From assembly GCA_000474255.1 (NCBI GenBank), contig BATO01000043.1, positions 1 to 51,108 on the forward strand: a stretch of 51,108 bases of DNA. Reading direction: 5' to 3'. Under the pieces are notes generated by a model. The model was not told the origin of the DNA and did not search any database. It saw only the letters and a list, made by a program, of their open reading frames with translations. A program made the position numbers and the translations under genes. This DNA is from Aquipseudomonas alcaligenes MRY13-0052. GTDB lineage: Bacteria > Pseudomonadota > Gammaproteobacteria > Pseudomonadales > Pseudomonadaceae. This document shows, in pieces, positions 31,430 through 35,078 of this stretch (positions are counted from its first letter, which is position 1; the number at the start of each line of letters is the position of its first letter).

Positions 31430-33832
31430 TCAGTCTTCCTTGGGTTCGTCCCCGGCCGGCTTCCAGGTCTTCAGCAGCAGGGCGTTGCTCACCACGCTGA
31501 CGCTGGAGAGTGCCATCGCGGCGCCGGCTACCACCGGGTTGAGCATGCCGGCGGCGGCGAGGGGGATGCCCACCAGGTTGTAGATGAAGGCCCAGAACAG
31601 GTTCTGGCGGATCTTGCCATAGGTGCGTCGGGCGATCTCCAGGGCGGCGGGCACCAGGCGCGGGTCGCCGCGCATCAGGGTGATGCCGGCGGCGTGCATG
31701 GCCACGTCCGTGCCACCGCCCATGGCGATGCCGACGTCCGCCGCCGCGAGGGCCGGGGCGTCGTTGATGCCGTCGCCGACCATCGCCACCACTGCGCCAC
31801 CGGCCTTGAGCCGTGCCACTTCGGCGGCCTTGTCTGCCGGCAGCACCTCGGCGTGCACGTCGTCGATGCCCAATGCCTCGGCCACCACCCGGGCGCTGCC
31901 ACGGTTGTCGCCGGTGATCAGGTGGCTGGCCACGTGGCGCTCGCGCAGGGCCTGCACGGCCTCACGGGCGCCGTCCTTGAGGCTGTCGCCGAAGGCGAAG
32001 AGGCCGATCACCCGTGCCTGGGGCTGCAGCTCCAGCAGCCAGGACAGGGTGCGGCCCTGGGCCTCCCAGGCCTCGGCGGAGGCCAGCAGGGCACCGCCGT
32101 CGAGCGTGCTTTCGTCCAGCAGGCGACGGTTGCCCAGGGCTAGCAGGCGCCCGTCCACCACACCCTGGATACCGCGCCCGGTGAGGGATTGGCTGTCCGC
32201 GACCTGGGGCACCGTCAGGGCGCGCTCGCTGCAGGCGTCGAGCACGGCCTTGGCCAGTGGGTGCTCGCTGCCGCGCTGCAGGGCGCCGGCCAGCGCCAGC
32301 AGGCTGGCTTCGTCGCCATCCGCGGCGCTCAGGTTGGTGATGCGCGGGGTGCCGGAGGTGAGGGTGCCGGTCTTGTCGAAGGCGACGGCGGTGACCGCGT
32401 GGGCGACCTCCAGGGCCTCGGCGTCCTTGATCAGGATGCCGTGGCGGGCGGCGACGCCGGTGCCGGCCATGATCGCTGTCGGCGTGGCCAGGCCGAGGGC
32501 GCAGGGGCAGGCGATCACCAGCACGGCGACGGCGTTGATCAGCGCGGTTTCCACGGGCGCGCCGGCCAGCAGCCAGCCGCCGAGGGTGGCCAGGGCGATC
32601 AGCAGCACCGCCGGGACGAACACCTGGCTGACCCGGTCCACCAGTTTCTGGATCGGCGCCTTGGCCGCCTGGGCGTCTTCCACCAGGCGGATGATGCGTG
32701 CCAGCACGGTTTCGCCGCCGATGGCGCTGGTGCGCACCCGCAGGCGGCCTTCGCCGTTGATGGCGCCACCGGTGACGCTATCGCCGGGGCGCTTGGGCAC
32801 CGGCAGGCTTTCACCGCTGATCAGGGCCTCGTCGGCGTGGCTCTGGCCTTCCAGCACCTCGCCGTCCACCGGGAAGCGCTCGCCGGGCTTCACCAGTACC
32901 TCGTCGCCCAGGCGCAGTTCGGCGATGGCCACCTCTTCCTCGCGGCCGTCGCGCAGGCGGATGGCCCGTTCCGGGCGCAGCGCTTCGAGGGCGCGGATGG
33001 CGGCGCTGGTCTGGCGCTTGGCGCGGCTTTCCAGGTACTTGCCCAGCAGCACCAGGGCGATGACCACCGCCGAGGCTTCGAAGTACAGGTGCGGCGTGTG
33101 GCCGGGGTGGGCGGTGGCCCATTGGTAGAGGCTCAGGCCGTAGCCGGCGCTGGTGCCGATGGCCACCAGCAGGTCCATGTTGCCGGCGCCGGCGCGCACG
33201 GCCTTCCAGGCGGCGCGGTAGAAGCGCGCACCGAGGATGAACTGCACCGGGGTGGCCAGGGCGAACTGCGCCCAGGCCGGCAGCATCCAGTGCAGGCCGA
33301 AGGGTTCCAGCAGCATCGGCAGCACCAGGGGCAGCGCCAGGGCCAGGGCGATGCACAGCGCCCAGCGCTCGCGGCGCAGGCGGCTGGCGGTGTCGTCGCT
33401 GGGCGGTGTCGCGGCATCCAGGGCGCGGGCGTGGTAGCCGGCCCGCTCCACGGCCTGCAGCAGCGTGCTGCGCTCCACTTCGCCGAGCAACAGCAGGTGG
33501 GCGCGCTCGGTGGCCAGGTTCACCGTCACCTCGCCCACCCCCGGCACCTTGGCCAGGGCGCGTTCCACACGGCCCACGCAGCTGGCGCAGGTCATGCCGT
33601 CGATGGCCAGTTCCAGGCGCTGGCCGGGCACCGCGTAGCCGGCACCTTCCACCGCCGCGCGCAGGGCCGGCAGGCTGTCACCCGGTGCTTCTATGCGGGC
33701 GCGCTCGGTGGCCAGGTTGACGCTGGCGGCCTTCACCCCAGGCACCTTGGCCAGGGCACGCTCCACGCGCCCGGCGCAGCTGGCGCAGGTCATCCCGGCA
33801 ATCGGCAGGTCGAACGAAACGGATGGATTCAT
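31430..33832 (-). CDS. copA: Cu(I)-exporting P1B-type ATPase CopA
   Basis: An 800-residue copper pump. Two N-terminal HMA domains carry GMTCASC (C16/C19 and C82/C85). Eight membrane helices are expected. The membrane copper site CPC lies in [17 protein letters not shown] near residue 443. The phosphorylation motif DKTGTLTSG is near 485, the [11 protein letters not shown] motif follows, and the hinge reads [16 protein letters not shown]. The last helices carry YN and MxxSS residues ([19 protein letters not shown]) that complete the Cu(I) site. AGGAGG precedes the ATG at 33832. A CueR-type promoter lies just upstream. Confidence 0.97.
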
Positions 33833-33857
33833 GGGCAATTCCTCCTGGGTTGCCCAC

Positions 33858-33888
33858 AGGATCGACCTTGACACGAGGGCAAGGTCAA
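33858..33888 (-). promoter_or_regulatory. CueR-activated promoter of copA
   Basis: Reading the minus strand, -35 TTGACC (33888-33883) is followed by a 19-bp spacer and -10 GATCCT (33863-33858). The spacer carries a dyad with ACCTTG and CAAGGT half-sites at 33865-33885. An overlong spacer centred on such a dyad is diagnostic of MerR-family control; the neighbouring cueR supplies the activator. The -10 lies 25 bp from the copA ATG. Confidence 0.88.
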
Positions 33889-33924
33889 GCGGCGAGTTGT
33901 CGCAGCGCTCCCTCTGTAGGGGCG

Positions 33925-34511
33925 AATTCATTGGCTCTGTCTGCGTTAGCTGTTGTGGTTTTAATGCAGACGCTCAAGCACCGCCATTTTCGGGCGCCAA
34001 AGGGTTCGTGCCACCTCCGCCGCATGGGTTTCGCTTCGCTCTAAACCATCCTACGAAAGCCGCCAGCCGCGGCGTACACCCGCAGGTGATGCGCACATCA
34101 ATGTGGGGATTCGAGCGAAGAACGTTGGAGCAGCCGCCAAACGCCCCTTTCAGGAGGCCGAGCGAATCGTCGTGAAACGAAGCGAAGCGGAGTAACAGCC
34201 GAAGGCTGGCCCGGAGGGTGAGCGAAGCGAGTCAAGGGGTTGAGCGACATGGATGTCGCGAGAGCCGCGATGGGCCAGGGATGGCCCTTCGCGGCGTGCC
34301 CCTGGAACGATGATGGAGCGAGGGAAGTCTGGCGAAGCCAGACCCGTATGCAGGGGCAAGCGTTTTTGGTTCCTTTTTTGTGGTTCGGCATCCCGACGAC
34401 TGAAAAAAGGGACTCGCCCGGGTGGGCGAAACCAAGAGCATCAACAAAACTCGGCAATCAACTGGGCTCAACTTTTCTAGCAACACTTAACGCAGATAGA
34501 GCCAATTCATT
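33925..34511. mobile_element. MITE-like non-autonomous element inserted in a REP
   Basis: A 571-bp element (33933-34503) has 23-bp terminal inverted repeats matching at 20 positions, each starting GGCTCT and sharing TCTGCGTTA (33933-33955; 34481-34503). It is flanked by the 8-bp direct repeat AATTCATT (33925-33932; 34504-34511). Removing the element and one repeat restores the perfect REP palindrome GGGCGAATTCATTCGCCC. It holds no credible transposase; open frames inside lack ribosome sites and family likeness. An 8-bp duplication with GG-starting ends fits families such as ISL3, IS6, IS256 or IS1595, but the parent is not identified. The interior includes a reversed copy of the repeat seen at 5948 and a run of hairpins. 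Confidence 0.85.
34244..34343. repeat. Three consecutive hairpins inside the element
   Basis: GCGACAT/ATGTCGC (34244-34259) has a 2-base loop. A 13-bp stem with one T/T mismatch (GCCGCGA, GGGCCA and their complements, 34264-34295) closes on GGGA. GTCTGGC/GCCAGAC (34327-34343) has a GAA loop. A run of perfect stems in one direction suggests a folded RNA or single-stranded DNA structure; no named RNA family is recognised. Confidence 0.6.
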
Positions 34512-34549
34512 CGCCCGGCGATCTCCCCATGAGCACAGGCTTTTTGGTG

Positions 34550-34612
34550 GAAGCGGATTCACCCGCGATGGCCCGGTACCGCCGCACTCGGTAGCCCGGG
34601 CTTCAGCCCGGG
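34550..34612. repeat. REP pair upstream of the secreted-protein gene 3' end
   Basis: A slightly imperfect GCGGATTCACCCGC is at 34553-34566 and a perfect CCCGGGCTTCAGCCCGGG at 34595-34612. The second is the reverse complement of the copies at 5823 and 9961. Both lie just past the stop of the gene at 34626-34997. Confidence 0.7.
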
Positions 34613-34625
34613 ACCGGGGCCTGGC

Positions 34626-34997
34626 TCAGGGATTGGACAGCGCCGGCGTCAGGTACAGGCCGGAGGTGTTCATCGCCAGGCGGTATTTGCGCACCTCGCC
34701 GGCCTCCAGGCTGATGGACTGCTGGCGCTGCTGCTCGATGCCGGGCTTGCAGCGGCCGGGGCCGAGCAGGCCGAGGCGGATGGAAACCGGGCCCGGTTGC
34801 AGGTTGACGGCAATGCTCTCGCCCTGCACCAGGCGTGCGGCGAGCTGGTCCTGCAGGTACAGGCCAACGTCGCAGCTGGTGGGCAGCTCGACCCGTTCGC
34901 GGGTGACGATCAGCACGCTGTAGTCGATGGGGGATTGCGCGCTGGCGGGGCCGGCGAGGGTGAGCAGGGCGAGCAGGCAGAAACGGCTGGGGGACAT
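34626..34997 (-). CDS. Secreted protein of unknown function
   Basis: A 123-residue protein with signal peptide MSPSRFCLLALLTLAGPASA, cleavage likely after residue 20. The mature part is beta-rich with two Cys, in PTSCDVGLY and GPGRCKPG, which could form a disulphide. No family recognised. GGAG lies 9 bp before ATG 34997; the frame extends upstream but without a ribosome site. Its 5' region faces copZ, and the CueR promoter of copZ lies 50 bp away in the other direction. A copper role is possible but has no support in the protein itself. Confidence 0.7.
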   Translation of the reverse strand: MSPSRFCLLALLTLAGPASAQSPIDYSVLIVTRERVELPTSCDVGLYLQDQLAARLVQGESIAVNLQPGPVSIRLGLLGPGRCKPGIEQQRQQSISLEAGEVRKYRLAMNTSGLYLTPALSNP

Positions 34998-35047
34998 GGC
35001 GGCGACTCCGGAACGGCATGGCTTGAGTGTAGGGGATCGCGGCGCGC

Positions 35048-35078
35048 TTGACCTTGCCACCGTGGCAAGCCCGAGACT
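35048..35078 (+). promoter_or_regulatory. CueR-activated promoter of copZ
   Basis: TTGACC at 35048-35053, a 19-bp spacer, and GAGACT at 35073-35078. The spacer region carries the perfect 17-bp palindrome CTTGCCACCGTGGCAAG (35053-35069), the best CueR-type dyad in the window. It matches the copA promoter in -35 and spacer length. Confidence 0.88.

Follow-up and report, generated by a model that had tools for sequence, protein, structure and literature searches.

A REP-targeted MITE with IS1595-type ends and a TwoAYGGAY-like RNA module upstream of copA in Aquipseudomonas alcaligenes

Several ISs are known to be REP-specific, namely ISPsy8, ISPa11, ISPpu9, ISPpu10, ISRm22 and ISRm19 (Tobes and Pareja 2006, PMC1525189; here and below, articles given by PMC number are cited from excerpts). 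They enter the REP at a fixed point, which for ISRm22 and ISPsy8 is the axis of the palindrome, and the REP is restored when they are removed; the element described here has these properties in common with them, but it is a MITE, whereas the REP-specific ISs carry their own transposase genes (PMC1525189). Their target duplications are none (ISPa11), 2 bp (ISPpu9 and ISPpu10), 3 bp (ISPsy8) or 6 bp (ISRm22), compared to 8 bp here (PMC1525189). In the IS1595 family, which has a zinc finger, duplications are usually of 8 bp (PMC8101967). MITEPsy1 is multicopy like the present element, but has a 4-bp duplication and is tentatively related to IS5 (PMC3189936), and the multicopy R0-R200 intergenic repeats of P. 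fluorescens, of which R200 is 320 bp long, show the same bias towards genes lying tail to tail as is found here (PMC2718517). In REPIN/RAYT elements, which are IS200/IS605-like, the REPs are the element's own ends and there is no larger duplication (PMC2817692). TwoAYGGAY (RF01731), with two AYGGAY-type hairpins inside an outer stem (PMC2864571, PMC4333381) as in the element studied here, was listed in 2010 as an orphan RNA family without function (PMC2864571), and has already been proposed to bind CsrA (PMC4333381), so this idea is not new here. The excerpts of the TwoAYGGAY literature (PMC2864571, PMC11701678, PMC4333381) contain no mention of a mobile carrier or a transposon, and no description of the present element was found in searches of open-access literature on REPs, MITEs, IS1595, Csr/Rsm or intergenic repeats. 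REP-specific transposition and this orphan RNA family, which are unconnected in the open-access literature examined, meet in this element.

The window, i.e. the whole stretch of DNA analysed, is a single contig of 51,108 bp from the draft genome of A. alcaligenes MRY13-0052 (G000; 6.88 Mb in 237 contigs). Read directly, the element and its surroundings follow each other as ...GTAGGGGCG, AATTCATT, the 571 bp of the element (33933-34503), AATTCATT, CGCCCGG..., with the following features:

33920..33932, plus strand: left half of the REP, GGGCG and AATTCATT, the left target-site duplication being 33925-33932, with GTAG just upstream; the site is empty in the congener G004.
33933..33955, plus strand: left terminal inverted repeat GGCTCTGTCTGCGTTAGCTGTTG, identical at 21/23 positions with the left end of an IS1595-family IS found in the congener G015 (locus L120).
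33933..34503, plus strand: MITE of 571 bp with IS1595-type ends and without a transposase frame, from copies, ends and the listing of open reading frames.
34237..34301, plus strand: TwoAYGGAY RNA core, matching RF01731 with 40.3 bits, under the gathering score of 43.
34244..34259, plus strand: hairpin 1, GCGAC-ATGGAT-GTCGC, with the CsrA-type hexaloop AUGGAU (alignment, covariation and folding).
34264..34295, plus strand: hairpin 2, with the hexaloop AGGGAU closed by GGGCC/GGCCC (34272-34287) and a longer lower stem (alignment, covariation and folding).
34327..34343, plus strand: hairpin 3, GTCTGGC-GAA-GCCAGAC (folding).
34368..34418, no strand: inverted repeat GGTTCCTTTTTT...AAAAAAGGGACTCGCC; the loop of the same repeat holds an IS481-family IS in the same-species genome G038 (5/5 full copies).
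34413..34430, minus strand: terminator-like hairpin with a T-run (1 found, against 1.0 expected by chance).
34481..34503, minus strand: right terminal inverted repeat; the right end of L120 is identical to that of the window copy at 25/27 positions and to the usual right end of the family at 26/27.
34504..34516, plus strand: right target-site duplication AATTCATT (34504-34511) and right half of the REP, CGCCC, read directly.

Direct reading agrees with the initial annotation on the 23-bp terminal inverted repeats (GGCTCTGTCTGCGTTAGCTGTTG on the left and, as reverse complement, GGCTCTATCTGCGTTAAGTGTTG on the right, 20/23 identical) and on the flanking 8-bp repeat, which is AATTCATT on both sides. 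The same annotation had a REP restored by removal of the element. When the element and one 8-mer are taken out, the flanks do become GGGCGAATTCATTCGCCC, in which the 18-bp palindrome GGGCG-AATTCATT-CGCCC reappears with GTAG just 5', but its two central bases are unpaired, and since AATTCATT is itself the REP centre, the restored REP and the target duplication are one fact and not two. GTAG-tagged REPs are reportedly the subject of a published study. The interior was described as having no transposase, and the open reading frame listing gives short frames only within the element, none of them transposase-like; the structured RNA inside it had however been missed. The interpretation as a MITE is supported by the number of copies, the defined ends, the 8-bp duplications, the lack of a transposase and the empty sites found both in a congener and within the species, and it is near certain that the element is an IS1595-derived, REP-targeted MITE.

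The whole account, which we consider highly probable, is that of a MITE with IS1595-type ends, moved in trans, inserted through an 8-bp cut mostly at the REP centre, and carrying a TwoAYGGAY module with a likely CsrA/RsmA partner. An IS1595-type transposase acting in trans would bind the ends of 23-27 bp and move the element, which would be inserted by an 8-bp staggered cut, mostly on the AT-rich REP centre (AATTCATT) and in either orientation. The enzyme presumably recognises the REP directly, and not by way of a factor bound to it. The TwoAYGGAY module would ride between the ends, as two hairpins with their loops offered to a CsrA/RsmA-family protein. Such an element would be a natural target-selective system, in which a palindrome is cut at its centre with an 8-bp stagger; it would also place TwoAYGGAY in a genomic setting, supply many natural copies of it and allow the CsrA idea to be tested directly.

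A search for a full IS with the same ends led to L120 in G015, a 1,025-bp IS with the duplication TTTTCTTT and an uninterrupted transposase frame (NF033547, 194.8 bits for a cut-off of 75; PF12762; zinc-binding domain NF050000). In addition to the end identities listed above, L120 and the MITE have the asymmetry between left and right ends in common. Two plasmid ISs, from Azotobacter chroococcum (annotated as IS1595 family) and P. aeruginosa (annotated as ISAchd1 family), have similar ends, starting with GGCT[AC]TGTCTGAGTT, and AT-rich 8-bp duplications; they were traced with a 31-base query at E values up to 10, amid many chance rows. The duplications of L120 and the two plasmid ISs (TTTTCTTT, TTTTCCAA and TTTCTTTT) are AT-rich and are not the REP of the MITE, and so give no support to a REP habit of the parent. 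The element therefore resembles IS1595-family ISs and MITEs in its AT-rich 8-bp duplications (family traits according to PMC8101967) and in the matching asymmetric ends of the congener IS, and differs from the ISs of the family in having no transposase, an interior unrelated to the IS, an RNA family inside and REP targeting. Two other candidates for the parent, a plasmid record of Pseudomonas sp. MPC6 and the PF12762 match of G007 (L121), were rejected because each has one end only. As for an autonomous parent within the species, four 1.74-kb end pairs in G038, including the one at the copA site, turned out to be MITE copies into which an IS481-family IS had inserted. The initial annotation had placed the parent transposase elsewhere, which holds insofar as G015 has an IS of the IS1595 family that shares the asymmetric ends of the MITE, but the profile search with PF12762 gave matches in only 2/18 genomes of the genus and in neither the own draft G000 nor the complete G038. 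The element is for this reason claimed as an IS1595 derivative and not as a working pair, and the scarcity of PF12762 counts against the account where present-day movement is concerned. We infer that an IS lineage of the L120 type would have moved these copies in trans.

Searches of the own genome and its relatives with the 571 bp and with the ends gave many further copies. BLAST with the 571 bp found 51 matches in G000, several of which are pieces of one copy, and the 16-bp end with at most 2 mismatches has 79 sites there (41 forward and 38 reverse), compared to 5 (4 and 1) for the reversed control; taken together, these numbers mean that the ends are not due to chance. For the 23-bp end with at most 3 mismatches, 84 sites were found in G038, with 0 for the control. 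The counted copies, without IS insert, are 469-571 bp long. Among the relatives, the 571 bp matches 23 of 38 genomes, including all 17 of the own genus (own genome included), although in many cases the match is confined to the inner module. No match to the 571 bp was found on plasmids, and no exact match of the end pattern in viral contigs. Several contigs of G000 start or stop inside copies of the element (L031, L036, L039, L045, L048 and others), so the element probably causes breaks in the draft assembly. The gene context, called from open-frame composition for 55 copies, with both sides called in 45 of them, is convergent for 25 copies, co-directional for 10, opposite for 9 and divergent for 1, and there is no bias towards co-directional genes (10 vs 9 copies).

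An empty REP was found at the orthologous position of the window locus in the congener G004, which reads CCGTAGGGGCGAATTCATTCGCCCAGCGAT, with one 8-mer, an intact REP and no element, while in G038 the element is present with the same duplication and with the nested IS. G005, G014 and G008 have neither element nor REP in the stretch shown after the CueR-type dyad described below, and G001 has another copy of the inner module nearby. When the flanks of 41 G000 loci were compared with the fetched stretches of G038, 23 had a partner (some of them being two contig ends of one copy, and L010 matching on one side only) and 18 had none. Twelve of these 18 were queried (all except L002, L025, L033, L036, L039 and L046), and 10 of the 12 could be located in G038 at 97-100% identity. 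Three of the 10 are empty sites exact to the base (L006/L201, L011/L204 and L017/L207), L004/L200, L013/L208 and L022/L205 are element-free with an intact REP, and L021/L199 and L020/L203 are element-free with substitutions in the REP. The stretches of L018 and L028 are rearranged or deleted in G038, and L003 and L024 have no G038 match above 89% identity; none of these four was counted as empty. With 8 of the 10 located sites element-free in the other genome, the element moved, or was precisely lost, after G000 and G038 parted. This presence or absence within one species, as a mark of recent movement (or precise loss), could be used for strain markers. The flank of the G000 copy L024 matches a series of eight direct repeats about 204 bp apart in G038 (C1:2210988-2212556, L209-L216).

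RF01731 has 40 matches in G000, only two of which are over the gathering score (46.2 and 44.4); this and the sub-threshold score of the window copy count against the account. Six loci were scored against it, with L070 and L062 over 43, and L146, L072, L145 and the IS locus L120 under. Thirty-one of the 40 matches overlap a BLAST match of the MITE, 5 adjoin matches or ends, and 4 do neither; unlike TwoAYGGAY as described, the family is thus found here between transposon ends, 36/40 matches in the own genome overlapping or adjoining MITE matches or ends. In the class sample, for which at most 11 candidates were scored per genome, 14/229 genomes have RF01731, 12 of them over the gathering score, and six besides the own one have at least 5 matches; it was not found in 14 well-known control genomes. 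Its distribution in the class is patchy and multicopy. Other Pseudomonadaceae (L062, L070, L082, L138, L142, L063, L083 and others) have the module, corresponding to about positions 210-500 of the element, from about GCCCCTTCAGGAGGCC to GGCGAAAC, with no IS1595 ends seen on inspection of 220-260 bases of flank on each side. Decayed ends are present at L072, from another genus, and at L145. The module is larger than the Rfam core and, given its presence in other Pseudomonadaceae where no IS1595 ends were seen, probably predates the MITE. Multicopy TwoAYGGAY repeats also occur in distant Gammaproteobacteria (L223-L250), some of them beside an inverted repeat of the ACTTTTTG/CAAAAAGT type. A scan of 28 class loci for 18-mer inverted repeats gave pairs in 8, several of which are internal palindromes, and neither common ends nor matching duplications were seen.

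The structure of the module was studied by scanning 57 loci for segments with two ANGGAN loops 23-35 nt apart, each with at least 4 closing pairs, which gave 35 distinct segments. Of these, 29 came from 27/29 loci of the own genome and relatives (L075 failed, and L085 is identical to another) and 6 from 5/28 class loci. The covariation alignment holds 30 segments, the five from outside the family (L231, L233, two of L235, and L241) being left out. ANGGA and the inner four pairs are partly constant by construction of the scan; the C before and the TG after the loop, which the scan does not demand, are constant in 30/30. Over 25 pairs, 88.5% of the cells pair and both sides change at 15 pairs, with a covariation of 0.232 compared to 0.102 +/- 0.009 for shuffles (0/500 as high) and at most 0.091 for slid alignments. 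Without the eight pairs demanded by the scan, 83.1% of the cells of the remaining 17 pairs are paired, 12 pairs change on both sides, and the covariation is 0.270, compared to 0.123 +/- 0.013 (0/500 as high) and at most 0.107 when slid. In the number of further pair types, the alignment does not stand out from the shuffles, 53 and 60 of 500 being as high, and at pairs 6-77 and 42-62 most segments do not pair. The folded module has a z of -2.78; CANGGAUG stands at both of its loops, which are separated by 28 nt. In the window copy, loop 2 is AGGGAT, so that only loop 1 is a strict AYGGAY. In the MITE copies of both genomes (n=51), a sample free of scan bias, loop 1 is CATGGATG and loop 2 is CATGGATG or CAGGGATG in 50 (CA[TG]GGATG), the exception being L013, with CATAGATG. 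That the element carries a conserved structured RNA is well supported, and the pattern of change in stems and loops indicates that the hairpins are kept as RNA (or single-strand) structures.

CsrA/RsmA-binding sRNAs include RsmX/Y/Z and CsrB/C. The present hairpins resemble them in their ANGGAU hexaloops closed by C-G, with hairpin 1 closed by AC/GU as in SELEX (PMC7652899), and differ in that the binding is predicted, and in belonging to a multicopy mobile element and not to a single regulated gene. The CsrA SELEX consensus is RUACARGGAUGU, with the GGA mostly in six-base loops and with AC/GU pairing (PMC7652899), and here GGA is found in hairpin hexaloops with SELEX-like flanks, GACAUGGAUGUC (hairpin 1) and GCCAGGGAUGGC. 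As a point against the account, the stems are longer than the at most 4 pairs of most CsrA SELEX winners (PMC7652899). A CsrA/RsmA-family protein would be the most likely partner of the two loops, and the own genome has five matches to this family (PF02599).

It is plausible, though less likely than not, that the element goes further and acts as a mobile Rsm decoy, i.e. that the RNA is transcribed at many loci, the number of copies buffering or titrating RsmA/CsrA to the gain of the host or the element, with the core under selection. The constancy of the loops in 50/51 copies while the stems covary, the five CsrA-family matches, and the recurrence of the loop pattern with unrelated stems and loops 25-28 nt apart in the five segments from distant lineages (L231, L233, L235 and L241) would all fit such a role. 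Rare variants are also fewer in the two hairpins (7 in 48 sites) than in the whole element (189/483) or the left end (11/23), or, per site, 0.188 and 0.125 for the hairpins, 0.58 for the left arm, 0.27 for the rest of the right part, and 0.48 and 0.39 for the ends, although this difference is only indicative, since the copies are related, orthologues are counted twice and the left arm has more indels. On the other hand, no sigma-70-like promoter was found in 33800-34650, which together with the lack of orientation bias (10 vs 9) makes a function as an expressed RNA less likely. Only 5/28 class loci moreover had two such loops at a distance of 23-35 nt, so that Rfam matches outside the family do not generally show the strict loop pattern. 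An extension of the decoy, which we regard as unlikely, is that a transposon captured a CsrA/RsmA-binding RNA and would seed it by REP-specific insertion at harmless 3'-side intergenic sites, with copy number setting the amount of decoy. If true, TwoAYGGAY in general would be a mobile Rsm decoy family.

The hairpins could instead have their role at the DNA level, e.g. in transposition, replication or recombination, their RNA-like look being incidental. This too seems improbable, even if the module is multicopy both with and without IS1595 ends and has the patchy distribution in the class that mobile DNA would have (14/229 genomes, six besides the own one with at least 5 matches). The long inverted repeat of the module serves in turn as a target for IS481: an IS481-family IS is present in G038 in 5 full copies (NF033577; C1:1408906-1410167, 4012584-4013845, 4951038-4952299, 6005972-6007233 and 6344291-6345552), and 5/5 lie in the loop of the GGTTCC/GGTTAC..GGGACTC-type inverted repeat of the MITE, including the copy at the copA site. 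This IS thus seems to use the MITE as its target, and the nesting in G038 is that of the IS in the MITE and of the MITE mostly in the REP; in G000 there are only distant matches to the IS, at 64-73% identity. The count of loop types is strand-blind (73 A.GGA. loops and 66 A.CCA. loops), since the A.CCA. loops are for the most part A.GGA. hairpins seen from the opposite strand; it cannot separate the strands and is not counted as evidence. Against a DNA role, the loop and its closing pairs agree on one strand with the CsrA consensus, and a need of the RNA core for transposition is so far without support.

The initial annotation had suggested that REP targeting might be a preference rather than chance. 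The insertion sites were read in 50 G038 stretches, selected for an end site or a BLAST match, and at 31 G000 loci, and left-type and right-type ends could be paired in 34 and 22 cases, respectively; L179 was dropped as spurious (6 end mismatches, 2/8 bases duplicated), leaving 33 and 22. L040 and L178, which are one site in both genomes, were not counted because both ends scored as left-type, though L040 has a perfect AATTCATT duplication, and sites common to G038 and G000 were counted in each. A perfect 8-bp duplication is present in 45/55 counted copies (26/33 in G038 and 19/22 in G000). The left 8-mer is AATTCATT or AATGAATT in 39/55 (24/33 and 15/22), with both orientations represented (12/12 in G038 and 8/7 in G000), GCG..CGC surrounds the duplication in 28/33 and 19/22, and the tag GT[AG]GG[AG]GC is found on at least one side in 21/33 and 16/22. 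Other REP centres are also hit (ACTGAAGT and ATTGAAAT). The duplication of L022 is imperfect, with AATTCATT on the left and ATTTCAAT on the right, and imperfect duplications may come from recombination between copies or from drift. The preference for REPs is confirmed by the control, consisting of twenty evenly spaced 20-kb stretches of G038 (400 kb, genes included, and so not intergenic DNA alone), where only 9 of the 1,645 8-mers with at least 7 A/T are AATTCATT or AATGAATT. The same stretches contain 4 palindromes of the type GG[AG]GCGA-N6-TCGC.

It is quite unlikely that the REP targeting is a by-product of AT-richness, with an AT-preferring enzyme finding few other non-genic sites in a genome of 66% GC. 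Such a preference would agree with the AT-rich 8-bp duplications of ISApl4, an IS of the IS1595 family (PMC12561309), with the AT-rich 8-mers at which the related ISs examined here sit, and with the few copies of the element at other AT-rich 8-mers (ATTTCTTT, AAAGAAAA and AATGCTTT). It does not account for the difference between 9/1,645 AT-rich 8-mers and 39/55 insertion sites for AATTCATT/AATGAATT, nor for that between 10/1,645 and 49/55 for CG..CG flanks (the control including genes in both cases), and the REPs centred on ACTGAAGT and ATTGAAAT are hit as well. An element mobilised in the REPIN/RAYT manner is ruled out by the REP being a target outside the element, by the 8-bp duplication and by the IS1595-like ends. 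An integron cassette, such as the one that bears sRNA-Xcc1 (PMC12444791), is an unneeded explanation, as the ends and duplications account for the element.

The element was placed by the initial annotation upstream of copA, between two CueR-controlled units, and it does lie between two dyads which we take to be of the CueR type, at 33865-33889 before copA and at 35050-35069 before copZ. Both copA and the next gene are on the minus strand, and the window copy has its RNA on the other (plus) strand. Since the dyad at 33865-33889 is intact, about 43 bp away, and the RNA points away, no effect of the element on copA would be expected at this site. A frame of 144 aa with a signal-like start, on the minus strand at 34626-35060, also lies between the two dyads and has no Pfam or NCBIfam match. 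Frames related to it were found near copA-like DNA at three named loci, of Pseudomonas indica, P. boanensis (NCBI: Metapseudomonas boanensis) and Pseudomonas sp. PIC25, in a search with a neighbouring protein from which records very near the window may be absent.
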